Assembly (NCBI GenBank): GCA_010093515.1
Contig: MU001675.1
Span: 949,371 to 1,013,370, forward strand
DNA from: Lineolata rhizophorae
Lineage: Eukaryota > Ascomycota > Dothideomycetes > Lineolatales > Lineolataceae
Reading direction: 5' to 3'
Length of the DNA stretch: 64,000 bases
The notes below the pieces were generated by a model, which had not been told where the DNA came from, ran no database searches, and saw only the letters and a program-made list of their open reading frames with translations. The position numbers were made by a program, and so were the translations under genes. Below, in pieces: positions 25,253-42,945 of the stretch (within the stretch, counting starts at the first letter, position 1; the number at the start of each line of letters is the position of its first letter).

Positions 25253-25256
25253 ATAT

Positions 25257-25614
25257 TGTAGCAGGGTAGAGCACTTCACCTAAGATCAACGCTTAAAGAA
25301 CAGAAGAGGAGGATCACGTCGTCACTGCTTCACGGCATTATGCGTTCGTATATAGAGGGGCACTGTTGCTTGCTAACTAACTTTTGGTAATGAGAGAGGG
25401 GAAGATAGGAAAAAGGGGCAAAGAAAGCTTTTTGTGATGTATGTATAATTGGCAAGGGCAACTTGACTTGTATGTGTGTTAAATGAGTGAATTGAGTGAG
25501 TGTGGTTGAAGGAGAAAACCCAACCTACTTAAAAGGAAAAGAAAGCACGTGAAAAAAAGAGGAAGCAACTACCAAAAAGGGGTATTAGGGTCGGCGCCGC
25601 CCTACTCTACTACA
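25257..25614 (-). mobile_element. TG...CA repeat copy 1 (solo-LTR-like or MITE)
   Basis: A 358-bp copy of the family described in the findings. It begins TGTAGCAGGGTAGAGC and ends GGCGCCGCCCTACTCTACTACA-type sequence, giving TG...CA termini and an imperfect 16-bp terminal inverted repeat. It is flanked by a perfect 4-bp duplication, ATAT at 25253-25256 and 25615-25618. Orientation is given so that the CACGTGA box lies near the start; this copy is therefore on the minus strand. No coding sequence. The intact flanking duplication suggests one simple insertion. Confidence 0.85.
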
Positions 25615-25618
25615 ATAT

Positions 25619-26136
25619 GCATCTTATTCGAGTAGACACGGTCGAAGAGTCACGAATAAATATCAATTTAAGGGGAAATTTATGGCCCTATCAAAATAGA
25701 TGGGAAATATTTCACTTAATTCTTGGGTGGGTATACTAACGTTCTACAGTACTACGGTGGGGGTTTTTCAATTTTAAGTTAAGGACATTAGATAGCTCTC
25801 CTTAATTTTAGTGTGGAGTCTTGTGAGTGCCAAGACTTGACAATGCAAGTAAAGTCAATCATTGCCATGTCTTGGTATATAAAGGACGATGTTTCCCTGC
25901 ATCTCCACTCTGCAGGTGAGATAGCTATATGCTGTTCATTAATTTGGAGGAGTACAAGCTAGCAGCACAGAGCACGTGGCATCGAGCCTGCGAGATGATG
26001 TGGTCGGGATTTGGTGATACATAATACCGTATGACACGCGAGGCCTGCAGTCCCACACAGCGCAGCTTAAGGGTCAAGCTGGGTTCAGATCTCAAGAGCC
26101 TAGTCTATCTAGATCAAAGGAAGTTGAGATAGTTTT
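25619..26136. other. AT-rich spacer 3' of SQS1
   Basis: No gene seen. It includes an imperfect inverted repeat: CCAAGACTTGACAATG near 25837 pairs with CATTGCCATGTCTTGG near 25863 (14 of 16), followed at once by TATATAAAGG near 25879. This may be the promoter-like part of another small repeat. The last bases should be the SQS1 3' UTR. Confidence 0.45.
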
Positions 26137-28404
26137 CTAACCTAGACCCGCTTTTGAAGTCTTGACAACGTGTGTGATCGGCTCCATGATGCCCTTGTTA
26201 TTGAGCGCACCAAGCGCGGTCCCTTTACTCCACCCCATTTTCTCAAGCATAGCCCGACCTCGATTCTCTGACCCAATTTCAGGGGCCGCGTGTCCAACGA
26301 TCTCCCCTTCCATGTAAGTGGCCGCGGAAGTGCCACCGCCTCGCTTGGTCCTAGCAGCCTTCCTAGGCCGAGGCATGAATCCTTGGTGGTAACGCCCTTG
26401 AAGGCGAGTAAAAACAACGTCGTCAAATTCGGCAGTGAGAGTAGTCTTAATCAGCGTGGGGCATCTGTTATTCCCCTTTCCGCTTGACTTTGACTTTAAC
26501 CCGAAGCCCGCGGCGAGAGCGTGTACAAACGCGCGGTCATTCTTCTCTAATGGCGGGAAGGTACGACTATAAATGAACGACGCGTTAGGACCTTCATATA
26601 ATGGAATAAAGGGATACGTAAAAAGCAGAGCATATAAAGGCACATACCTATCTAGTGTTGAGGTCAAAAATAACTTGAATTCCTCTTTGATGTCCAAGAT
26701 ACTCATTCCCTCGTGGTACTTGACGGATAGGTCAGCGATCCCTTTGTTCTTTCTGCCCAGAAGGCCTTGCGCACGAAGCTGTTCCCTTTCCGCCTTCTTC
26801 AGTCGTTTCTTATTTCGGTCAAGTTCCCATTGGGCCTTCATAGCTGACTCCAGTTCGTTATCGGAGAGTTCAAACGGCGTTGGATTTCTGCGACCTTTTG
26901 CTTTGTTCTTCAAGCTCGGCCTCTCGTAGTCCATGACATCGAAGCCACCATATGGGTCCTGCTCTAGTACGTCGGCCATCACAGTTGCAGAAGGGAAGTG
27001 TTGTTCCCTGTCATTGCCTCTATGCTGAGAGGGACGTGATGGTCTCTTCAACTTCGTAGAGGGCCCTCCAAAATCACCGGCATCATCCGCACCGAAGATG
27101 AGGAGCTCTTCAGAGCCCATGCCGTAGAAGTTTTGCTTGGCTAGAAGCTCTGCAATGCGCTCGTCGTCAAGTTGATCCATCCTTCTCTTGATTATATCCT
27201 TCTCGTCCTCGAAACTCTCATCCGTGTTGCTATTCTCGTTATCGCCATCTTCCTCTTCATCATTGAGAGCATCATCGTCGGAACCGGCGCCAAAGCCGTC
27301 ATCACTGGTACTATCCCGGCTTTCTAGTTCGGGATATTGATCCGAGCTAGACCGGCTGGTAGCTAGAAGGTTTTCCGGCGCGAGGGACGTGGGAAAGACG
27401 GTATGCCGGCCCGGACGGTCTTGATATGCCTCGGGATATTTTTCGACGTCCAGAAGATATTTTTCGAGTTCATTCGAGGTAGCGCCATCCATAGGACGGA
27501 GTAGAGTAGAATCGTTCAAGAACCCGTGTTCTCCAAGGTTGAACACGTAATCGCGATGGGCCTCACCATCTTCAATGTTTTGTTCTGCTCGAGTGGCGGC
27601 AGCAGCTCTGCGGAAGCGTTTCGTCGGCTTTTGCCGTCGAAACTTGTCCTTCGAGGGCTTCTCGTTCGACGTAGCTCCTTGAGGCGGCCCACAGCCCGGA
27701 GTCTGCTTCCCGCAATTAGACGAGGCGGTTTGCTTGGAGTCATTAAGAGCTTTTGCCGAAGAGGTCGGTGGAGGATCAGCCACGCGAGGGTGCAAAACCG
27801 ATCCCGGGGGGTTACGACCTCGGAAAAGCACAATCTCTTCGGTCGACGACGAAGGCGTCGGCGAAGCCGTACGAAGGGGCGACCCCGACGTGTTGGTCTG
27901 CGAGGTCACGCCTCGGAACTGATCGGAGTCTTGCACGTGATCATTCTCTGACCGAGGGACGACTGGAGGCTTGTCATCCTCGAGGGTCAAATTAGCCAGA
28001 GATTCCTGGGGCTCCACAGGACTCGGACTCGAGTTGCTAGATGGCCGAGCAGAATCGGGGGCGACGTCTGCCTGCTTGTCTGGTCCGTTCCCGGCAAGTC
28101 TCCCCGCTGAGACGAACGAAACTGGTAAATTTCGAAGCTTTGTTCCGTGCAACCAATGCTTGTCATGGCCAGAGGTCAGGCGCGCTTCGTCGGCAAGAGA
28201 AAAGGGCAGAGAGCGAGGAACTGACACTGGCCATGAGTCTGGTCCCAAGTCGCGGGGAGAGTGTCTCCGGTACTTACCATTGGAGGAACCGGGGCCGTTG
28301 TTGCGAGCTCTCCCGGCGGAGGAATCGTACGAAGCATTTCCATGGCCCTTCGGCGGCGCTTGAAAGCGCTTGGGCGGGAAGCGCTTCTTCTTGCCTCTTG
28401 CCAT
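26137..28404 (-). CDS. SQS1: R3H and G-patch protein, Prp43 helicase cofactor (Sqs1/Pfa1 type)
   Basis: Model: complement(26137..26566, 26648..28220, 28278..28404), 709 aa. The start at 28404 gives MARGKKKRFPPKRF, like other Sqs1 N-termini; an open frame extends further upstream but lacks similarity to the family. The protein is long, acidic and low-complexity in the middle (DDEEEDGDNENSN-type tract), then has an R3H-like domain from about 568 (TFPPLEKNDRAFVHALAAG) and a C-terminal G-patch at 664-709 (GRAMLEKMGWSKGTALG). By family knowledge it activates the DEAH helicase Prp43 in spliceosome disassembly and ribosome synthesis. Both introns are multiples of three without stops (57 and 81 nt). 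The 81-nt one has clear GTATGT, CTAAC and TATAG signals and removes a hydrophobic insert from the R3H core. The 57-nt one (GTAAGT...TCAG) is less certain; kept, the protein would be 728 aa. Confidence 0.88.
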   Translation of the reverse strand: MARGKKKRFPPKRFQAPPKGHGNASYDSSAGRARNNGPGSSNGKYRRHSPRDLGPDSWPVSVPRSLPFSLADEARLTSGHDKHWLHGTKLRNLPVSFVSAGRLAGNGPDKQADVAPDSARPSSNSSPSPVEPQESLANLTLEDDKPPVVPRSENDHVQDSDQFRGVTSQTNTSGSPLRTASPTPSSSTEEIVLFRGRNPPGSVLHPRVADPPPTSSAKALNDSKQTASSNCGKQTPGCGPPQGATSNEKPSKDKFRRQKPTKRFRRAAAATRAEQNIEDGEAHRDYVFNLGEHGFLNDSTLLRPMDGATSNELEKYLLDVEKYPEAYQDRPGRHTVFPTSLAPENLLATSRSSSDQYPELESRDSTSDDGFGAGSDDDALNDEEEDGDNENSNTDESFEDEKDIIKRRMDQLDDERIAELLAKQNFYGMGSEELLIFGADDAGDFGGPSTKLKRPSRPSQHRGNDREQHFPSATVMADVLEQDPYGGFDVMDYERPSLKNKAKGRRNPTPFELSDNELESAMKAQWELDRNKKRLKKAEREQLRAQGLLGRKNKGIADLSVKYHEGMSILDIKEEFKLFLTSTLDRYVPLYALLFTYPFIPLYEGPNASFIYSRTFPPLEKNDRAFVHALAAGFGLKSKSSGKGNNRCPTLIKTTLTAEFDDVVFTRLQGRYHQGFMPRPRKAARTKRGGGTSAATYMEGEIVGHAAPEIGSENRGRAMLEKMGWSKGTALGALNNKGIMEPITHVVKTSKAGLG

Positions 28405-29319
28405 AGCTTTGCTTGAGACGAAAGGGTTGGCTTTGGAACGGTGGGAGGCTTCGAAGGGAGGGATGGAGGGGGTGCGGTGAAATGCGGAGGCGACGGCGGT
28501 GACTTGGGGTTGGATGCTTGGGTAAGGCGGCGCTTTGTGCCCGCATACCACGTAGACCAGTAGCCGTTTGGCGTGACTGCCCTGGGGCTCTGGGCGGAAG
28601 TAGCGACCGTTGTTACATATGTACAAGTACATATCCCCGCGGTTCGTGGCGTCATAGGTGCCACCGTCCCCTGCGCCGGGCGGCTTCTCAGCCAGTCGTT
28701 TGCAGGCGCTTGCGAGCGCCTGTTCCTTCGCTTTGACGCAGCAGGAGGCCTGAGGCACCGGGAAACGTCCAGCAAATACGTGCTACGTACATACTGTACG
28801 GAGCACAACTTCGTGTCCAAAATGCCTTCGGGCCGCGGATGCGCCACAGATCCATCCCGCTTGCGCGCCGAGCCCGGATGCGTGCCTTGCGTTCCAACGG
28901 AGCATCGCAAGCCCACCGTCGTAGGTACCGATGTGCATAGGTCCGTTGCGCCCCGGACGACGCCCTTCTCTGGCTTGTGCATTGCTACCTCCCTCTTGAG
29001 GCTGAACACCCCCTACGCAAACCTCCTCGTCGTAGGTCTTTGCTAGGCCTTGGCCGCTTTCTCGGGACTGCGTTGTAGCTGTGGTTGGTCAAGAGCGGTG
29101 GCCGCCAGCCCCCCCTCCCCCGCCCACGTTGGAAAGCTACCCGGCCTCCCGATGCAGCTGACTCCCGCCAGTGCGCCGCCTCTTGTGAGCCGACCTCCAG
29201 GCAGCACGGCCACGAGATCATCCCCCCCATCGTCGCCGTCCAACTGCTCCGCGCTCCTTGCTTGCGCTCCTCTTCACCTCAAAAAGGCCCTGGCCCTTTG
29301 AGCTCCCCGTCGCCCGACC
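28405..29319. other. Divergent promoter of SQS1 and ATG4
   Basis: A 915-bp intergenic stretch between two genes that read away from each other. No gene, repeat or RNA was recognised. The last 250 bases before ATG4 are CT-rich, as often near fungal start sites. Confidence 0.5.
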
Positions 29320-30746
29320 ATGAGCAATGTCGACATCGGGCGCTACAGCAAGCGCATCGTCCAGTACTTTTGGGACCCGCCTCCGCGCAACGACGATGTT
29401 TCTGGCGAGCCCATCTGGTGCCTAGGCATGCGCTACGACAGCAGCCCGAAGCCCCGACCCGCGGATACGGAGCCGTCGACCAGTTCCGCCCAGGCTCAGC
29501 CGCCGCCGAGCCTGTCCATATCCCAGGATTCCGTGTCTTCGGCCTCGCCCGACCAGAGCGGAAGTAGCAGCATGGAGGACACATCCATCGTGAACGCCGA
29601 AGATGCCGTGCAAGCTGGTGGTGACGGCTCGTGGCCCACAGACTTCTTGGACGACTTTGAATCGCGGATTTGGCTAACGTATCGTTGCAACTTCCCGCTC
29701 ATACCCAAGTCGCAGGACCCTAACGCCGGTGCCGCCATGAGCCTCTCGGTGCGGTTTAAGCAGCTGGGCAACCAAGCGGGATTTACGTCAGATTCCGGGT
29801 GGGGATGCATGATAAGGTCAGGACAGTCACTTTTGGCAAACGCCATGCAAATTCTGCGCTTAGGTAGAGACTGGAGACGAGGCCAGAGTGTTTTGGAAGA
29901 GAGGCGGCTACTGTCACTCTTCGCGGACGATCCAAGGGCCCCATTTTCTATACATAGGTTTGTTGAACATGGTGCTTCAGCGTGCGGGAAGCATCCAGGC
30001 GAGTGGTTCGGGCCGTCCGCGACTGCAAGGTGCATACAGTAAGATTTCTTCGTCCCCATCCTCAAAAATGCTTCGGTCTAAACACCCTAGGGCCTTGACA
30101 AATGAACAAAACAATCTCGGTCTACGCGTCTACATCACAGGTGACGGGTCGGACGTGTACGAGGATAGCTTCTTCAGGGTTGCAAAGACTGAGCAGGGCA
30201 CCTTCCAGCCGACTCTGGTCCTTGTGGGCATCCGGTTGGGCATCGATCGAGTGACTCCAGTCTATTGGGAAGCTCTCAAATCATCGCTACAAATGCCTCA
30301 ATCCATCGGCATTGCTGGGTAAGAGTTGCCTGCACGTTTCAGATGTTGTTGAGCTCGCTAACGCCGGGATACGTAGTGGCCGACCGTCCTCATCACACTA
30401 CTTTGTTGGCACCCAAGGACCGTATTTTTTCTACCTCGACCCCCATCAAACGCGACCTGTGCTCCCGCTCTTTGATAATATGTCCGAGTACTCCGATGAG
30501 GACGTATGTTCTTGCCACACACGACGTTTGCGCCGGATACGTATCCGTGAAATGGATCCAAGTATGCTCATCGCGTTTCTCATCAAATCTGAGGATGACT
30601 GGCGAGACTGGCGGCGCAGAATATTGGAAACCCACGGAAAGCCAATCGTCCACGTAGCCGATCACGAACCGACGCTGCATGGACACGATTCGGAACGGGA
30701 GGGCGCAATTGATGAGGTCGAGGCATTTGACGATGATACGGAGTAA
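29320..30746 (+). CDS. ATG4: Autophagy cysteine protease Atg4
   Basis: Model: 29320..30038, 30091..30318, 30377..30746; 438 aa, three exons. The enzyme cleaves the C-terminus of Atg8 to expose its Gly for lipidation and later frees it from phosphatidylethanolamine on autophagic membranes. The catalytic Cys163 is in [13 protein letters not shown]; the Asp337/His339 pair is in [11 protein letters not shown]. Further family blocks are [43 protein letters not shown] and [11 protein letters not shown], the last restored exactly across the second intron. Residues about 42-100 form a Ser/Pro-rich insert typical of filamentous ascomycetes. The tail after 400 is acidic. It starts 915 bp from SQS1 (divergent) and runs toward H2B (convergent, 436 bp between stops). 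Confidence 0.96.
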
Positions 30747-31182
30747 AGGCAAATTTGTACATGATACCACGGATAATTCGAGATTCTCTGAATATTGTAT
30801 GTAACAGACATACTATACGTACCAATTTAGGCGTTCGATGCGAGTGTCCCATGAAGCCAACAGGCCGCAAGGTGAACAAGGATACCGGTCTAGGTGCAGA
30901 TTAATGTGGGATTTTGCTTCAGACCCAAGCATCACAGGCAAGGAACTATTCAGGGCGACGGGATTTAATCGAGGGAAAAACCTAGATTTCTTCCCGTAAA
31001 ATGTATTGTACAACCACTAATGCCCTGGAAAAAGGTGAACCGTAGAAGCCATTTGGGCCCAGAACAAGCCATCCCGCTAACATTAAGAAACCGTTAACAC
31101 CGCCCAGAAACCCCGTATGCTCATCCTAGCGGCCCAGACCGCCAGCTCCACCGAAACCCGTTAGAAACCAAACAGGACCCAT
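30747..31182. other. Convergent 3' spacer between ATG4 and H2B
   Basis: A 436-bp stretch where two genes end toward each other. It should hold both 3' untranslated regions. I see no gene or repeat. Confidence 0.5.
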
Positions 31183-31778
31183 TTACTTGGTGGACGAAGA
31201 GTACTTGGTGACGGCCTTGGTGCCCTCAGACACGGCGTGCTTGGCAAGTTCGCCTGGCAAGATCAGCCGGACACTGCAAACATGGTTAGCGAGGTTTGCG
31301 TAACAGAATACGCCGGGCCGGGAAAAACGCACGATGTTTGAATCTCGCGAGAGGAAATGGTAGACTTCTTGTTGTAGGCCGCAAGCTTCGACGCCTCGGT
31401 GGCGACGCGCTCGAAGATGTCGTTGACGAAAGAGTTTAGAATCGACATGGCACGGTTCGAGATACCAGTGTCAGGGTGGACCTGCTTGAGAACTGAAGAG
31501 CGCATTAGCGAGGTTGTCGCGATCGGATTTGGGCGTCATGCGCGAAAGCACGCGGGTCACATTGCGCGTCTCGAAGACGCGTCGCAGACGCCCGAATTTG
31601 CTGGAAAATTACCTTTATAGATGTAGGAGGAGTAGGTCTCCTTCCTGGACTTGGTGCGCTTCTTCTTTTCGCCAGAGGGAGCGGCGGTCTTCTTGCCGGC
31701 CTCCTTCTTCTCAGCGGGAGCCTTACCAGCCGGGGCCTTACCCGCGGTGGTGGGAGTCTTGGTGGCTTTCGGAGGCAT
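31183..31778 (-). CDS. Histone H2B
   Basis: Model: complement(31183..31273, 31333..31492, 31613..31778), 138 aa, three exons. It pairs with H2A in the nucleosome. The N-terminal tail is Lys/Ala/Pro-rich ([18 protein letters not shown]), followed by the histone fold [20 protein letters not shown], with [19 protein letters not shown] and a C-terminal helix that ends AVTKYSSTK. Both introns lie in the fold region and all joins restore the invariant sequence. It is divergently arranged with H2A; a TTAAAA box on its strand at 31933-31928 lies about 150 bp upstream of the start codon and may serve as TATA element. Confidence 0.98.
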
Positions 31779-33041
31779 TTTTTACTAAAGTCGGAGATTG
31801 GAGCCGAAAAAAAGAGACTTGGGCGTGGTGCGTGGTGATGGAACTGAGATGCAGCGGAGAGACCTGGGTTTGGCGTGGATGGAAGAATGATGGGAACGAG
31901 CGAAAGGTTGGAGGGGGGCGGGCGGGCTTTTAAGAGCGAAGCAGCTACGCAGTTGATCGCGCGGGCACCAAAACGCGGTGATTTGCGCTTTGGGCGCGAC
32001 TGCCCACCCGGATTGTTAAGCGACTCCAAAACACACGCTTCGGGACTAGCCCTACCGCCCCTCACCCTTGGGTATCGACCAATCGCGTCCGGTCGCGCAG
32101 TGCCGCCACGGCCCTTGTCCGTTGTCCGCCAGGCACCTATTTTGCGAGAACGCGAGAGAAAGCGGCTGTGCTGCCTTACACGCAACAAGTGCCTCATTTT
32201 ATTTATTTATTTTAATAGAAAATATCTAGGTTTTTAGCGGAGACTAGCGTCCGTTGGAGTACGGGGGCTACTTACTAGCTAGGTACGTACTACCTATTCT
32301 CATGCCCAGCATTATCGGCTCAAGATGTTGCGACCGAACCATCTCTCATGTCCACCGCGTCTGTAAGAAGGGGCACTGGGACGGTTTCATAGTTCGCTAT
32401 GGCTCGAGTGCTACGGAGACCTATACTAAGCGGGCAGGATCTGAAGAATATCCGTGCAAAGAATAGTTGCAATTCCCCCAAGTATCGTGGCCTTTGCGCG
32501 TCCGCGATGAGACCCTAGCGTATAGTGAAAACGCAAATTCCTAGGTACTCGAGCCGTCCTTGCGGTTGAGTCGCGCGAACGAATTTCTCTGGTTGAGGAA
32601 AAGTCCGATTGTAAGTGTTGCAAAATTAGTTAAATCCGAAAAAAAAAAGCCCCCGTAACTGCGGCCGAAAGGGAAATGGTTTACCCTCTGTTAATGCTTG
32701 AGCATCGGAGAAGTGGGCTTATAGAACAGGTCATATTCGGGGTAGCGCTCCAGGCACCGGTTGCTGCTGCTCCGGGATGAGGGGCGAAGGCTCGCTGCTT
32801 TGATGTTGTGGCCGAAATCGGTATAGTCACTAGGCTTGGCAAACGCGGGTCGCGCATCGGTGATATCGCTCGCAGCGTGCGCAGGGCTCGGCTGCTATAA
32901 AGTCTACCGCCCGCCCGCACTCCACTTGCCTAGCTTCCCCAACTCTCATCCATCGACAACTGCTGCCGCATCAACACCACCGCGTCTTTGACACCCGCCA
33001 CACCAACCCAAACCACCTCTACTTCCTAAAACCCACCCAAA
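31779..33041. promoter_or_regulatory. Shared divergent promoter of H2B and H2A
   Basis: This 1263-bp region separates the two core histone genes. On the H2A side a TATAAA box sits at 32896-32901, about 140 bp before the ATG. On the H2B side TTAAAA at 31933-31928 is placed similarly. One CCAAT box is seen at 32079-32083. The ends are CT-rich leaders. Divergent H2A/H2B pairs are standard in fungi and allow coordinated S-phase expression; the individual boxes are inferred from sequence only. Confidence 0.65.
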
Positions 33042-35304
<2,263 letters not shown>

Positions 35305-37312
35305 ATGCCCGGCCAGCAGTGTCTTCGTCGCCTGGCCGCAACCGGCTCGCCGTTGCGCGCCGCTGGTCGTGTCCGCCCTACCACCCTTGGGCTGCGTATG
35401 TCGTCACGCCCGTCTCAAGCTGTTCGAGCTCTCGGCACCAGGTCAAAGGCCCCGCTAACAACGTCCACCTCCACGTACGTCCAAATGCCCCTGTTGGAAA
35501 CAGCTGCTTTGATTTTGCGCTCTATCTGACGTTGCCCTAGACCTTTTTGCGCCAGGCCGTCCGGATTCAACTTGTCGTCGATTCCTCGTCGTCACTATGG
35601 TCAGTATGGATGCTTCCGGCCATGTACTATCAAATGCTAACTTGTCGATGTGCGACAGCCGACAAGATTGTCAAGGTTCCTGACATGGCCGAATCCATCA
35701 CCGAGGGAACCTTGAAGCAATTCTCAAAACGTATGCTGCTAGCTCCTATTGCGCGATTTTCACTCAAGCTACGACATTGAGTTATTTTCTAACATCTGCT
35801 CAGAGGTCGGCGATTACGTTGAGCAGGATGAAGAAATTGCGACCATCGAAACCGACAAGGTATTATAGCTACCCGTTAGACTGCGAAGGATAGTGGACAT
35901 GCGCTAACAGACAATCACCTCCACAGATTGATGTCTCTGTCAACGCCCCCGAAGCTGGTACAATCAAGGAATTCCTCGTCAAGGAAGAAGATACTGTCAC
36001 GGTCGGCCAGGACTTGGTTAAGCTTGAGCTCGGTGGTGAACCATCGGGTGGCCAGGAGGAAACTGCGAAGGAGGAGCCGAAGGAACCCGCACCAAAAGAG
36101 CAGGAGGCGCCCTCGGGAAAAACGGAAGAGAAGCCCGAGTCCGTGAAGGAAGAGAAGAAACCGGAACCACCTAGGGAGGAGAAGAAGCCGGGACCAACCA
36201 ATGATGAAAAGCCTGCGAAAAAGCCCGAGCCTTCGAAGAAGGAAGTCGAGGAACCTAAGAAGACCGAGACTCCATATGGTAGCAGGGAGGAACGCCGGGT
36301 ATGCAACTTCTTCCAGCGCGCGGCCTTCTGAAGCTGACGTGGGTGATAGGTGAAAATGAATCGCATGCGATTGCGCATTGCGGAGCGCCTAAAGCAGTCG
36401 CAGAACACAGCTGCCTCTCTTACCACCTTCAACGAGGTCGACATGTCCTCTTTGATGGAGTTCAGGAAGCTCTATAAGGATGAGGTTCTAAAAAAGACCG
36501 GTATTAAGCTGGGTTTCATGAGCGCTTTCTCTCGCGCCTGTGTACTTGCCATGAAGGACATCTCTGCGGTCAATGCGTCCATCGAGGGTCCCAACGGCGG
36601 TGACACCATTGTCTATAGGGATTATGTCGATATCAGCGTGGCCGTGGCCACGGAAAAGGGTCTTGTCACTCCCGTTGTGCGGAATGCCGAGTCTATGGAT
36701 ATGGTCGGCATTGAGAAGGCTATCGCCGACTTAGGCAAGAAGGTGCCCCAATATTCCCGGAAATCCCGTCGAGACTAGTGTTGTGCTAAAAGATTTTCAG
36801 GCACGTGACAACAAGCTCACAATCGAAGATATGGCTGGTGGCACGTTTACTATCAGCAACGTAAGTAATCCGACGTGTTCTCCGTGAGTTGTTCTAACTT
36901 TTAATAGGGTGGCGTTTTCGGTTCTCTTATGGGGACTCCCATCATCAACCTTCCTCAAACCGGTAAGCATGGATTTCCAATAGTGATCACCCTTTGCCTG
37001 AACTAATATCTTTGTACAGCTGTGCTTGGGCTGCACGCAATTAAGGACAAGGCTGTTGTTGTAAATGGACAGATTGTCGTTCGCCCGGTATGTTTCGCCT
37101 TCAAGTCCACAACAGAGTCGCAGCTAACGTGTCCAAGATGATGTACCTCGCTCTCACTTACGACCACCGCCTCTTAGATGGCAGAGAAGCGGTGACGTTT
37201 TTGGTCAGGGTACGTAACGTCGCTAATCAAACGTCACGAGCAATACTAACCATTTCTAAACCAATAGGTCAAGGATTACATTGAGGACCCGAGGCGCATG
37301 CTCCTTGGATAA
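35305..37312 (+). CDS. KGD2: 2-oxoglutarate dehydrogenase E2 (dihydrolipoyl succinyltransferase)
   Basis: Model: 35305..35474, 35541..35599, 35659..35730, 35805..35860, 35927..36298, 36350..36742, 36801..36860, 36908..36962, 37020..37087, 37138..37209, 37268..37312; 473 aa, eleven exons, all in phase. This mitochondrial TCA-cycle enzyme transfers succinyl from lipoamide to CoA and forms the core of the complex. An Arg-rich presequence (1-about 75) precedes [19 protein letters not shown]; the lipoyl Lys119 lies in ATIETDKIDV. A Lys/Glu/Pro-rich linker (about 165-240) has no E1/E3-binding domain, as in yeast Kgd2. The catalytic core carries His445 and Asp449 in TYDHRLLDG. Two splice sites are unusual: donor AAG|GTGCCC after exon 6 and acceptor CCAAG before exon 10, both backed by exact family sequence across the join. 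Retaining intron 6 would end translation at 36776-36778. Confidence 0.95.
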
Positions 37313-37930
37313 ATGCTGGCCACTAACCAAGTCTTGCGGGCTTTTGTTGGGATTGCATAGTGCTGTTTTTGTTAATACAGATGTGGGCTGTTAATGCTAT
37401 TCCTTTGCACGACATTAATTGTCGCCCGGTTCTAAGCAACGCCTGTACGATACCAAGTATTTTAACCTGCATAATAGCTCAATCGTAACTTGTCGGGTTA
37501 CCCGCGCGCCTGTATAGCACCTAGGTCACAAGTCGCTTTAAGTATGCGCATGGCGCTTATGATGGAACATCTCGGTTTCGACTTTCCACTTTGTATAATG
37601 TTCTAACCATAGGGTCCCGAATCAACAGCATTGAAGCAGTTCGCTTCCATCGTATAATCAATACGATAACTACTCGTGCAGATTAACCAGGATATGCGAT
37701 ATACGCGTCAGCTTTATGGCTCATCGAGCAGTTCAACCTAGCAGGTTTGCATATATATGTGTGTGTATGTGTGTGTGTGTGTGTGAAAAGAGAAAAACCT
37801 ATGGGGATAGGTAGAGTAAGTAGATAAGCCGTTGAGTTCTAGTAGTGGGAGGTCTTGGCGTTGGGCTCAACTGGGGTCTGATTGGTCATCAGAATTACTA
37901 CTACCAACCGAAAAAAAAGGGTTGGCAGTA
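37313..37930. other. Transition from KGD2 3' region into the repeat island
   Basis: KGD2 3' UTR followed by increasingly AT-rich DNA without genes. A GT microsatellite runs from about 37759 to 37785. No gene seen. Confidence 0.5.
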
Positions 37931-37937
37931 ATATAGC

Positions 37938-38477
37938 TATATTTAAGTTTTTAGAAGGGGTTTGTCCCTATTAGTACTAGGATCCCTATTACATAAATCG
38001 AAAATCCTACTAGAGTTTTCAGCTCCTAGTCTACCCTACCCCAATGGGATTACGCTAAACCTAAAGCGGAACCAGACCTAATGTAAAATAGTATCAATAC
38101 TGCCCCATTATAGAACATGGTTAGTCGTTCCAATATTCCGTAAACCTGTTTCTTGAATATAAGTAGGTGTAGGGGTTTGAAATTGTCTAAATGTGCTACT
38201 GCTATTAATTCGGCTATTACAGTTATTGTCGAGTTGCGTAAAACCCTTTGTCTAAATGTACAATTGGCAAAGCGCAACGTCACTTAACCCTATTACCACT
38301 AGGATTATGGGATTAGGGTTTTGGGACCCCGTGTTAGGTCTAGTTCCACTTTAAATTCAGCGTAGTCCCATTGGGGTAGGGCAGGCCAGGAGCTGAAAAC
38401 TCTAGTAGGATTTTCGATTTATGTAATAGGGATCCTAGTACTAATAGGGACAAACCCCTTCTAAAAACTTAAATATA
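37938..38477. repeat. 540-bp foldback element with about 140-bp inverted arms
   Basis: The left arm, from about 37938 (TATATTTAAGTTTTTAGAAG) to 38083, is repeated in inverse orientation from about 38335 to 38477. The arms match almost base for base over the outer 100-120 bp and diverge inward, mostly by transitions. Parts of the inner arm, such as TTTAGGTTTAGCGTAAT on the minus strand, recur at about 41680-41700 and, more loosely, at 40330-40440, so the arms are ends of a family present several times in this island. No target duplication is evident. It is best explained as a non-autonomous DNA transposon or two repeat ends joined head to head. Confidence 0.7.
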
Positions 38478-38888
38478 ACATGACTCCCTACCCCCCGGAA
38501 AATGTATTTAGTCTACTCTTACCTCTTTTTTTTTCCCTTTCACAATATGTTACTAGATGCACTATTAATTTTGCCTTACTAACTTTACAATATCCTTACG
38601 ATAAGTAACCTCTTACGCCCTGCATACAGTAGTAACTTCGATGACTAATTGGACCCTAATTGACCCTAATGCTAAGACCCTAAACCCCAATAAAAATATC
38701 GCCTTAATAGAAATCTAAACCTTGGTTTCATAGACCCTCCCTATTGTACAATATAATAGTGTTACATTTCATTAATAGCTGCTAATTTGTTACTTCCGAG
38801 CTAAAGCTTGCTAACCATGTGGTGGAAAAAAATAGACTGTAATGGGTAAGCGGAATGCCCAACAGACCCTCTATATAGAGACCCTAAG
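38478..38888. other. AT-rich repeat debris
   Basis: No gene. Stops in all frames and A/T homopolymer runs. The phrase ATTGACCCTAATGC near 38655 recurs inverted near 40680, so this is probably degraded transposon sequence. Confidence 0.45.
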
Positions 38889-39597
38889 TCTCCCAGTGTA
38901 GAGCACTTTACCTAGGACCAACACCTAAATAACAAAAGAAGCGTCACGTCTTTACTACTTCACGGCATCATGCGTTCGAGTTCAAAGAGGCACCGTTGCT
39001 TGCTAACTAACTTTTGGTAATAAGAATAGACAAGAAAGGGGCAAAGAAAAGCTTTTATGTATGTGTTGTAGTAGAGTAGGGCGGCGCCGACCCTAATACC
39101 CCTTTTTGGCAATTGCCTCTTCTTTCTTTCACGTGATTTCTTTTCCTTTTAAGTAGGTTGGGTTTTCTCCCTCAACAACACTCACTCAATTCACTCATTC
39201 AACACACACAAGTCAAGTTGCCTTTGCCTTCCATACAATCGCAAAAGTTTCCTTTGCTCTTTTTCTTGTCTTCCCTTCTCTCCTTATTACCAAAAGTTGG
39301 TTAGCAAGCAGCAGTGCTCCTCCGAACTCAAACGCATGATGCCGTGAAGCAGTGAGGACGTGACTCCTGCTCGCTTGTTCTTTAAGTGTGGGTCTTAGGC
39401 TAAGTGCTTTACCCTGCTACAGTGTGTATATATAGCAAAGGCAACATGACTTGTATGTATTTGAATAAATGAGTGAATTATCGTTTGTAGTGGAGGAGAA
39501 AACCCCAACCTACTTAAAAGGGGAAGAAGTCACGTGCAACTGAGAAAACAAACTGCCAGAAGGGGTGTTAGCGGTGGCGCCGCCCTACTCTACTACA
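38889..39597 (-). mobile_element. TG...CA repeat copy 2, interrupted by copy 3
   Basis: A copy of the 270-360 bp family split by a second copy. Its outer halves are about 38889-39066 and 39422-39597. The right terminus is clear (…CTCTACTACA at 39597); the left terminus has diverged from the family end, so its start is approximate and no clean flanking duplication is seen. The two halves join naturally at the GTGT target of copy 3. Being the host of a nested insertion it must be older than copy 3. Non-coding. Confidence 0.75.
39067..39421 (+). mobile_element. TG...CA repeat copy 3, nested in copy 2
   Basis: A 355-bp family member starting TGTAGTAGAGTAGGGC and ending TACCCTGCTACA. It is flanked by a perfect 4-bp duplication GTGT (39063-39066 and 39422-39425) and lies in opposite orientation within copy 2. 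It includes GGCGCC next to the start, a CACGTGA box, a TTTTAAG box and CT-rich sequence, in the order expected of a promoter. Non-coding; relatively young because both ends and the duplication are intact. Confidence 0.85.
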
Positions 39598-39832
39598 CTA
39601 GGGGAGGGCCAATAAGGGCCTTACCTATACCGTAGGGGTCCTAAGTAGGTTTTGGGAGTTTTCCCTGGTAGGGCGGGTTGGTAGGGGTAGGGGTTGGTTA
39701 ATACATATCGGCGGAACAGGCAAGGCGTAGTGTATTCAATAGCGTATGATTCTAATCTTGGAACTAGGGATTTACCTGATATGTAGCTCTTTCTTCCGTC
39801 AGGCTAAAGACCGGAGGTTTCTAGTAAAGTAG

Positions 39833-40102
39833 TGTAGAAGAACCCCCGTTCTTTTCCCCCAGCACGTGAGTTTCACAAACCTCCTTGATTGTATTTGACT
39901 CTCATCTTAGTTCTCTTTACACACACAACCTTCTCACTGCCACCAAAACCACTTGTTACACCCTCACCCTCTTACCTTCCTTTTAAAAAACCCAGTTGTT
40001 GCGTCCCAAAACCAAGACACGACGATGCTGTTAGAACGTGACGACGTGGTTACATGATGTCCCTTTGTGCTATTACCAGGTAGAGTGTTCTACCCCGCTA
40101 CA
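39833..40102 (+). mobile_element. TG...CA repeat copy 7, diverged short subfamily
   Basis: A 270-bp relative of the other copies. It starts TGTAGAAGAACC and ends CTACCCCGCTACA, and is flanked by a perfect GTAG duplication (39829-39832 and 40103-40106). It shares the CACGTGA box, an ACGACGTG phrase and the subterminal inverted repeat GGTAGAGTGTTCTACC, but is otherwise strongly diverged and shorter. It therefore represents an older or separate subfamily with the same terminal structure and duplication length. Non-coding. Confidence 0.75.
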
Positions 40103-40106
40103 GTAG

Positions 40107-41274
40107 GCAGCGGCAAGTGATGAAGTAAACTTTCTGTCTTACTCCATATACGCGAATCAATGATAACCCCTACTTAGTGGCACGGATGTCACGTGGCTAT
40201 AGGGCGGTAGACATAGCGGATAAACAAAATAAATCTAGGGGTAATATTAATTTTATGACCTCGTTCGCCGCACGAAATATAAGGGGTATATTTCGATTTT
40301 CCAACTATATAGCTAGGAATATAGTCTATAATATGGTGGGGTTTACCCTCTTAGGGCTTGGACAGGGTTTTCTTTTTAGATTTTGCGCAATTTTATCGGG
40401 GGAGGACAGGGTAGGAGGAACCTTCAAAAACCTGTTATAAATACTCGGCATCTACCGGCTAAAGGTTTATAAGAGATTCCCTCCTTAGTCGAAGTAAGGT
40501 CGGGGTTGGATCACGTGCTGCGTACGTGCCTCCCTATAGGGTGGAGTTTTGGGATCATAGTTAAGATACTAATAATGAGGTGGAGTGGGGCCGGGGTGTA
40601 GTCGACACCCCCCGAACCCTTTTGGGTCAGGGTTTAAGATTTCTACTAGAGCGAGATCTTTGGATGGGTTTGGGTTTTGGCATTAGGGTCAATTAGTGTC
40701 ATCTAAATTGCTATCATCAACCCCTTTTTTTGGTGGGTAGTAGTATGGCCATACAGGGCGGTCGATGATTATGTCGATAGCAACTAATAAATACTTAGCA
40801 TCTATCGGTATCTATCGATTGTATTATCAATATTTCCGGCTCCGCAGCATTTAAATACTCTACTATCTCAACATATAATATATGCTGTTTATACTTCAAA
40901 GAATTATCTTGCTTCATTTTTCGTACAAAAATTTGGGCTTGTAATTAAGTATATATATATTTCCTAGCTAGTAGCATCGTACTAAGGTACGATACCATGC
41001 TAGTCTTTTTAGCCAAGTCGGAACAATAATATTAATTAGTTCGTATATATATATATATATGGCTCGGCTGTCCCCTACTAGTATCATACTAGTAGCTAGG
41101 AACTATATATACTAACACTAATATTATAGGAGTAAGAATTTTATATGCTTAAGCAGGGTAGTCGACAACTATTGATTAGCTAATCAATAACTATTGATAT
41201 CTATTGGTCAAAGTATCGATCGGCTATCTATCGCCTTACGTAATACTATTGGTTTCATCGCCAGCGCTATGGCC
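40107..41274. other. AT-rich repeat debris with palindromes
   Basis: No gene supported; an 87-codon open frame at 40177-40440 has no domain and overlaps a repeated segment. Three strong palindromes lie close together: ATCGTAC/GTACGAT at 40976-40993, CTACTAGTAT/ATACTAGTAG at 41075-41095 and a perfect 20-bp palindrome at 41170-41189. An AT microsatellite sits at 41045-41060. Phrases at 40330-40440 resemble the arms of the foldback element. Confidence 0.45.
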
Positions 41275-41278
41275 ATAC

Positions 41279-41595
41279 TGTAACAGGGTAGAGCACTTTA
41301 CCTAGGAAGAGCACAAAAGAACAGAGGAGTCACGTCTTCACTGCTTCACGGCATCGTGTTTTCTAGATCGGAGAAGCAACTTTTGTATGCTAACTAACTC
41401 TTGAGTGATAGAAGAAGAAAGCAAAAGAAAAGGGAAAGAAAAGCTTTTGAATGAGAAAAAATTGAAGTGTGAATGTTGTGTTGTGAGAGGGAAAGAAAAC
41501 CTAGCATACATAAAAGGCGCAATCAAATCACGTGCAGTTATCCCAAAAAAAAAAAAAAGGGGGTGTTGAGGGTGACGCCGCCCTGCTCTACTACA
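41279..41595 (-). mobile_element. TG...CA repeat copy 4
   Basis: A 317-bp copy beginning TGTAACAGGGTAGAGC and ending CTCTACTACA, flanked by a perfect ATAC duplication (41275-41278 and 41596-41599). It contains an A14-like run near 41550 and is somewhat shorter than copies 1, 3 and 5. Orientation is the reverse of copies 5 and 6 to its right. Non-coding. Confidence 0.85.
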
Positions 41596-41599
41596 ATAC

Positions 41600-41743
41600 A
41601 TTATACAATTCCAAAATCCCATCCTAAGGGGGGGGGGGGGGGTTTAAAGAAAATAAAAAGCTCCTTTTATCCCACCCCAATAAAATTACGCTAAACCTAA
41701 AGGGGGAACCCGACCCAACCCCAAATAGGGTCAACCCCACCTC
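41600..41743. repeat. Repeat fragment with a 15-G run
   Basis: A run of 15 G at 41628-41642 is followed by sequence that, on the minus strand, carries the same phrase (CTTTAGGTTTAGCGTAAT) as the arms of the foldback element at 37938-38477. It is a fragment of that other repeat family, cut off on the right by copy 6 of the TG...CA family. Confidence 0.55.
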
Positions 41744-41747
41744 ATAG

Positions 41748-42446
41748 TGTAGTGTAGTAGAGTAGGGCGGCGCCAGCCCTAATACCCCTTTTTGGCAATT
41801 GCTTCCTCTTTCTTGCACGTGACTTCTTTTCCTTTTAAGTAGGTTAGGTTTTTCTCCTTCTACGCACACAAGACGCTCATTCAACAACACACACAAGTCA
41901 AATTGCCTTTGCCAATCAAATATATATACACAAAAGCCTTTCTCTCCCCTCCCCTTCTCTTGTCCTTCTCTCTTCTTATTACCAAAAGTTAGTTAGCAAG
42001 CAGCAGTGCTCCTCTATACGCGAGCGCGTGATGCCGTGAAGCAATGACGACGTGACCCTCTTCTTTTGTTCTTTAGGTGTTGGTCCTAGGTAAAGTGCTC
42101 TACCCTGCTACAGTAGTGGAGCAGGGCGGCGCCACCCCTAATACCCCTTTTGGCAGTTTCTTTCCCCAGTTGCACGTGACTTCATTCCCCTTTAAGTATG
42201 TTAGGTTTTTCTTCTCTACATACATATACACACAAGTCAAGTTGCCTTTGCTATGCATACACACACACGCAAAAGCTTTTCTTTGCCCCTTTTCTTGTCT
42301 TTTTCTTTTCTTATTACTTAAAAGTTAGTTAGCAAACAACGGTGCCTTTCTGAACCCGAACGCATGATGCCGTGAAGCAGTGAAGACGTGCCTCTTCCTT
42401 TGTTCTTTAAGTGTTGGTCCTAGGTAAAGTGCTCTACCCTGCTACA
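41748..42446 (+). mobile_element. TG...CA repeat copy 6, interrupted at its first bases by copy 5
   Basis: Copy 6 begins with TGTAG at 41748-41752, is interrupted by copy 5, and continues from 42113 to 42446, where it ends CCCTGCTACA. Its own flanking duplication is ATAG (41744-41747 and 42447-42450), intact despite the later insertion. Removing copy 5 and one GTAG leaves an element of about 335 bp with a normal start. Non-coding. Confidence 0.85.
41753..42112 (+). mobile_element. TG...CA repeat copy 5, nested in the terminus of copy 6
   Basis: A 360-bp copy starting TGTAGTAGAGTAGGGC and ending CTACCCTGCTACA. It inserted after the fifth base of copy 6, duplicating that element's own terminal GTAG (41749-41752 and 42113-42116). 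Both lie in the same orientation. It must be younger than copy 6. It carries the full set of shared marks: GGCGCC, GCACGTGAC, CCTTTTAAGTAGG and the subterminal inverted repeat. Non-coding. Confidence 0.88.
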
Positions 42447-42450
42447 ATAG

Positions 42451-42945
42451 TCCATATACGGAAGGATCGCTACTAGGCGGGCGGTTTGGCTTAGCGGCCG
42501 ATCGGGGACTGGAAAGGGCCTGCAAGGGGCGCTGCGGTAGCATCTGCATTGCGCGAGCGCGATGGCGACCCCCGATCGGTCTAGACATTCTGCACGGTTG
42601 GTACCGCTTACGCTGCGCATTTCTGAAAAGCACCTAGCTGCTCGGCAGGATACTTCATTATTGTGCGGTAGAACTCTCCTGCATGGACGCCCCAGGAAGT
42701 CAGACGAGTTTATCCCTCGAGAGCGCGTGCAAAAGTTTGTCTTACCTCCCCAGAAATGCGACTCGTCTTTCCAGCACGCTGCTCAACTGCTAAGTGGATA
42801 TGCGAAAAACCTTTTTACCTGCTTTTAATTGGGCTAGCTGGACGGGCTCAGGGGTGGTGCACTCGACCATGCAGCTTCCTTCTGCCCTCGTCTTGGTCTC
42901 AGAAAAGGATTCAGCAGGCATACCATACATTGTGCAATACGTGGT
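42451..42945. other. Spacer between the repeat island and the P450 relic
   Basis: Composition returns to about the level of the gene-bearing DNA. I see no intact gene; the short open frames show no domain. The right end may include the decayed N-terminal region of the P450 relic. Confidence 0.4.

Follow-up and report, generated by a model that had tools for sequence, protein, structure and literature searches.

The mangrove fungus Lineolata rhizophorae carries a dispersed repeat family that is real, genome-wide and was mobile in the past, and which is probably a non-autonomous, MITE-like DNA transposon family. Seven copies of it lie in the window, by which is meant the whole stretch of 64,000 nucleotides analysed here, within contig C6 of a searched assembly of 30,968,845 bases and 48 contigs. 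The initial annotation of the window left both a solo LTR and a MITE open as explanations, and of the two the MITE is now favoured because the target duplications recur, neither LTR pairs nor internal sequence are found, the duplications possess a TA core and the LTRs of a control family in the same genome differ. A short length (285-369 bp), a 16-bp terminal inverted repeat (TIR) and a target duplication of fixed length are the features of a MITE that the family presents.

All seven TGTAG...CTACA copies claimed for the window are there (Table 1), and a search of the window with the family profile yields no copy beyond them. The coordinates first given are right for six; outer copy 2 had been placed from 38889, which reads TCTCCC, and it starts instead at 38897 (TGTAGAGCAC), where the usual terminus is short by about 9 bp. 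Exact 4-bp duplications are found at the six copies for which they were claimed, and the window copies show the promoter-like order of CACGTGA, TTTTAAG and a CT-rich tract. Two of the seven, copies 2 and 6, serve as hosts, each split by a guest (copy 3 and copy 7 respectively), with the insertion site of copy 7 falling within the TGTAG terminus of copy 6. Taking guest copy 3 and one GTGT out of copy 2 leaves a continuous 342 bp that follows profile positions 1 to 343 unbroken, and so the rejoined copy is an empty site by paralogy. Copy 6 without its guest and one duplication measures 335 bp from its coordinates, and with both guests removed the claimed range of 270-360 bp holds. Copy 4 is the divergent one: four of its eight other genome matches span only about the last 110 bp, and the others cover 80-170 bp of the 3' part.

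Table 1. Copies of the repeat family in the window, with their flanking duplications (positions are those of the window).
Feature	Position	Strand	Description
Copy 1	25257..25614	-	Full length, 358 bp; duplication ATAT 25253-25256 / 25615-25618
Outer copy 2, first piece	38897..39066	-	3' half of element; shortened end TGTAGAGC
Outer copy 2, duplication	38893-38896 / 39598-39601		CCAG / CTAG, one mismatch
Copy 3	39067..39421	+	355 bp, inside copy 2; duplication GTGT 39063-39066 / 39422-39425
Outer copy 2, second piece	39426..39597	-	5' half of element
Copy 4	39833..40102	+	270 bp, divergent subfamily; duplication GTAG 39829-39832 / 40103-40106
Copy 5	41279..41595	-	317 bp; duplication ATAC (as listed on the + strand) 41275-41278 / 41596-41599
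Outer copy 6, first five bases TGTAG	41748..41752	+	Duplication ATAG 41744-41747 / 42447-42450
Copy 7	41753..42112	+	360 bp; duplication GTAG 41749-41752 / 42113-42116
Outer copy 6, remainder	42117..42446	+	335 bp together with 41748-41752

Nucleotide searches of the assembly with three family copies gave at least 51, at least 9 and at least 51 matches, and with a divergent copy at least 45, the four match lists overlapping and the counts being lower bounds. A family profile built from 52 matches, run over the stretches around known copies, gave 110 matches, 60 of them full length (285-369 bp). Together with 15 places from the divergent-copy search these give 120 places, spread over 29 contigs. 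At 92 of the 120 another place lies no more than 15 kb away, against a mean of 13.3 under random placement, a clustering figure that is inflated by the counting apart of nested pieces and by a re-search confined to the surroundings of known copies. The flanks have a median GC of 0.43 and are AT-richer than most of the window. Given a median pairwise identity among full-length copies of 0.71, with the best pair at 0.94, the family looks old. C to T is the commonest change (CA 0.105, CT 0.108), and repeat-induced point mutation is not claimed because these changes are not concentrated in CpA.

The imperfect 16-bp TIR proposed from the window is borne out across the family, with a mean of 11.5 of 16 positions matching and the next 24 bases falling to a background of 26%. 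Conservation is highest in the last 80 or so and the first 40 or so columns, several inner blocks being equally strong. The shortened 3' end of window copy 2 recurs in two further copies (C16:690053 and C17:578103), and because the duplications of all three match or nearly match at the new end, the outer 9 bp of the 3' end seem, judging from these three copies, to be dispensable or to have been lost before those insertions. Two other copies, C16:691896-692158 and C13:51554-51789, are without different middle parts, and their flanks, CTAC and GTAT, match by eye.

Across the 60 full-length copies the two flanking 4-bp sequences agree without mismatch in 35, with one mismatch in 10, two in five, three in seven and four in three. 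Shuffling the pairing of the flanks gave a mean of 5.0 exact duplications and a maximum of 14 in 2,000 shuffles, and shifted ends or a duplication length of 5 or 6 gave only 0-3 exact matches; other lengths and offsets stand far below 4 bp, save for parts contained in the 4-bp repeat. The boundaries and duplications, which the initial annotation allowed might fail at other loci, are thus found genome-wide, at 35 of 60 copies exactly. The 15 copies with two or more mismatches include outer copy 6, whose flanks were misread owing to the guest nested in it, and a pair whose duplications are swapped: the inverted copies C27:339182-339542 and C27:342697-343060 have theirs reciprocally exchanged (GTAT/CTAC and CTAC/GTAT), for which an inversion caused by the two copies recombining is the best explanation.

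At the centre of the 35 exact duplications stands TA in 34 and TG in one (copy 3, GTGT). Their first base is T once and their last base A once, GTAC, CTAG, GTAG and similar sequences account for a good part of them, and the bases outside the duplication display no strong preference. Among intact ends taken singly, TA is central in 49 of 52 at the 5' side and in 58 of 66 at the 3' side, on a background of TA dinucleotides of 4.2% in the window and 7.2% at the other loci. Since both outer bases are duplicated too, the duplicated unit spans 4 bp around a TA core and is not a 2-bp TA. Integrases of the retroviral type prefer a flexible pyrimidine-purine step in the middle of their cut, a preference that the single TG-centred duplication would fit.

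On the MITE-like reading the element was most likely mobilised as DNA by a DDE-type transposase, supplied in trans, that bound the 16-bp ends TGTAGYAGRGTAGRGC. Strand transfer would have used cuts with a 4-nt stagger around the TA step, gap repair at these cuts would have yielded the NTAN duplication, and the transposase would later have been lost or have decayed.

The copies could instead be solo LTRs left by an LTR retrotransposon lineage that has since disappeared, its integrase having made the 4-bp TA duplications and LTR-LTR recombination having removed the internal regions, a reading we consider unlikely though it has to be taken seriously. TG...CA ends together with a duplication of 4-6 bp, as in solo LTRs, are present in the family, the length is near 350 bp, and the conserved terminal and inner blocks with their promoter-like motif order could reflect LTR function, against the MITE. 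The 3' part is the region most widely common to the subfamilies, which would resemble what is expected of R-U5 in an LTR and likewise speaks against the MITE. TGTAG also fits the TGTNR start ascribed to most Gypsy LTR elements in PMC2836005. A 4-bp duplication alone does not exclude LTRs in this fungal class, because an LTR element with a 4-bp duplication is on record from Mycosphaerella graminicola.

Against the solo LTR are the surroundings of the copies. An LTR family is expected to leave pairs that flank internal sequence, and an LTR-type pattern of outer duplications occurs in 0 of the 30 same-orientation neighbour pairs (0.5-15 kb apart) among the 60 full-length copies; the search for LTR pairs around an internal region that the initial annotation proposed thereby moderately disfavours the solo LTR. 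The annotation had claimed that an internal domain is absent from the window, and none is seen there or in the other copies examined. When up to 600 bp of each flank were compared with family copies masked, 477 flank-versus-flank matches were obtained, mostly other repeats of the islands, and 14 of them begin no more than 20 bp from two element ends. Eleven of these 14 are the same DNA between neighbouring copies, and the remaining three are rows of two short cross-locus matches (37 and 57 bp) that look like chance, so that this comparison reveals no common internal sequence adjoining the ends of family copies. The pair C1:816436/812161, about 4 kb apart and in the same orientation, was rejected as an LTR pair, having an identity of only 0.81 and each member being nearer to other copies; at this single inspected pair no primer-binding site or purine tract was recognised by eye. 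A match between left and right flanks on C4 is not an LTR pair, as the copies there lie in opposite orientation.

A longer family form with an internal region was also considered for C15:761408-762767 and C17:578103-578885 and rejected. In both places one common other repeat interrupts a family copy near the middle. This repeat is truncated to varying extents at its 5' side, always ends alike at the 3' side, in a tail of ATA repeats, lies in an AT-rich spot between duplications of roughly 10 bp, and is probably a non-LTR retrotransposon. Pieces of it also match stretches on C4, C16, C27, C14, C11 and C25.

How LTRs do behave in this genome could be read from a Ty3/gypsy control. A genome-wide search with the integrase core (PF00665, rve) matched at three loci, all of which carry reverse transcriptase and/or RNase H of Ty3/gypsy type and are Ty3/gypsy by Pfam scans of their open reading frames, two with a chromodomain and one truncated at a contig end. 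At C33:169376-175446 a Ty3/gypsy chromovirus has a 1213-codon open frame (reverse transcriptase, RNase H, integrase and chromodomain) and a direct LTR pair. Its LTR of about 250-320 bp, with ends TGTCACGG...CCGTGACA, has 26 genome matches, of which at least three adjoin an internal region (the C33 pair and one on C41), as against 0 of the 60 full-length family copies in an LTR-type pair. Duplications were read for 10 of the 26: eight have an exact 5-bp duplication and the other two lack an exact one, and no exact duplication of 4 bp occurs among the ten; the 5-bp duplications are without a common core and without TA, and the target of the family, TA-centred in 34 of 35, is far stricter. The three integrase-core loci have LTRs other than the family, no match of the family profile to them being better than E 5.5. 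The real LTRs of the genome thus have ends, a duplication length and a choice of target unlike those of the family. The control LTRs nevertheless resemble the family in their TGT...ACA ends, in length and in the many single copies, and because at least eight of them (eight of the ten tested) likewise stand alone, each between a duplication of its own, the missing pairs count as moderate evidence only against the solo LTR.

The MITE-like reading is favoured but not proven, because the transposase-bearing partner that the initial annotation had suggested looking for was not found: no element joining the family ends to a transposase came from the end pattern, the rve and H2C2 searches or two DDE_1 loci. 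The end pattern with up to two mismatches gave 229 matches against 138 for a reversed control pattern, and the exact matches, among the matches listed, are mostly at known copies. The integrase zinc-finger (H2C2) search added two open frames, L092 2952-3782 (-) and L093 2702-3694 (-), neither with an integrase-core match and both without nearby terminal repeats, which are possibly domesticated genes. DDE_1 of the pogo/Fot1 type has 21 matches genome-wide, including several open frames of more than 400 codons and some adjoining family copies. These elements were rejected as the autonomous partner at the two places inspected: on C2 the transposon starts with ACGTAATC behind a run of TA within a disrupted family copy, and on C42 it lies outside a nearly complete one, so that they appear as neighbours or intruders and do not support partnership. 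Searches of the genome with DDE_Tnp_4 (Harbinger-type), which in control matched in 1 of 14 genomes, and with DDE_Tnp_1_7 (piggyBac-type), which matched in no control genome, gave no match. The partner may have disappeared or decayed, may belong to another type, or may have escaped these searches.

Within the MITE-like reading a narrower form would name the mobiliser as a Ginger2/Tdd-type or similar Gypsy-integrase-like DNA transposon, which we think quite improbable. By the Ginger description (PMC2836005), Ginger2/Tdd shares with the family a TGTNR start, 4-bp duplications (in animals) and a preference for TA-rich targets, and a Ginger2-type protein has been reported from the fungus Malassezia globosa. 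The same description gives a 6-bp RTATAY target, TIRs of about 50-180 bp and a known transposase, in contrast to the NTAN without flank preference and the 16-bp TIR of the family (PMC2836005). Further, the integrase-core and zinc-finger searches returned only the three Ty3/gypsy loci and the two genes without an integrase core, and none of the three rve loci encodes an integrase-like transposase without reverse transcriptase, as in Ginger2/Tdd.

Other superfamilies resemble the family in part. IS481EU (PMC10045372) has TGT...ACA or TNT..AYA ends, TIRs that mostly stay below 50 bp, several families with 4-bp duplications and non-autonomous families without a known partner; it differs in being reported from parabasalids and in also making duplications of about 15 and 25 bp, whereas in the present family longer duplications, looked for at 5 and 6 bp, were not seen. 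Sola2 (PMC3627910) has a short imperfect TIR and 4-bp AT-rich duplications, but these follow AWWT, which is seen in one of the 35 exact duplications here (ATAT). PHIS/Harbinger (PMC4482050) uses TA- or TNA-type targets and short TIRs, but its duplications are typically of 3 bp and DDE_Tnp_4 is without a match here (control 1/14 genomes). By these descriptions no superfamily among Ginger, IS481EU, Sola2 and PHIS agrees in ends, TIR length, duplication length and target together; Ginger2 and IS481EU are the nearest, as candidates only. The pogo/Fot1 group makes 2-bp TA duplications, unlike the 35 exact 4-bp ones here, and piggyBac targets TTAA, a sequence found in 0 of the 35. Searches of the open-licence PMC literature listed no paper whose title or abstract describes the family, and as far as could be seen it is new and unusual in its combination of features.

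A SINE-type element or a non-mobile dispersed repeat is very improbable indeed. What suggests a SINE is one arm, TGTAGCAGGGTAGAGCACTT, which is reminiscent of a tRNA D-arm. ARAGORN finds no tRNA in the window, Rfam finds no tRNA family over 38700-42600 and only one sub-threshold match, outside the copies, and fixed 4-bp duplications with inverted ends are not SINE-like, the fixed duplications by themselves already contradicting this reading.

TG...CA ends with a 4-bp duplication suit retroviral-type integrases, and the family might, on what would be a distinctly long shot, be the footprint of an undescribed group of eukaryotic DNA transposons with a retroviral-integrase-like enzyme (TG...CA, 4-nt stagger) that requires a central TA. 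If so, such a group would be a link between the integrases of LTR elements and the TA-specific transposases.

The enzyme that mobilises an element leaves its fingerprints in the ends, the duplication length and the target core. Because the set of TGTAG...CTACA ends, a 16-bp TIR, strict NTAN and 4 bp matches none of the superfamily descriptions compared, the family is a lead to an as yet unmatched transposase. Genome annotation could easily misfile it as solo LTRs. MITEs and solo LTRs can be alike in ends and duplication lengths, and the family is a clean test case for telling them apart, for which the LTR control from the same genome provides a cheap means.
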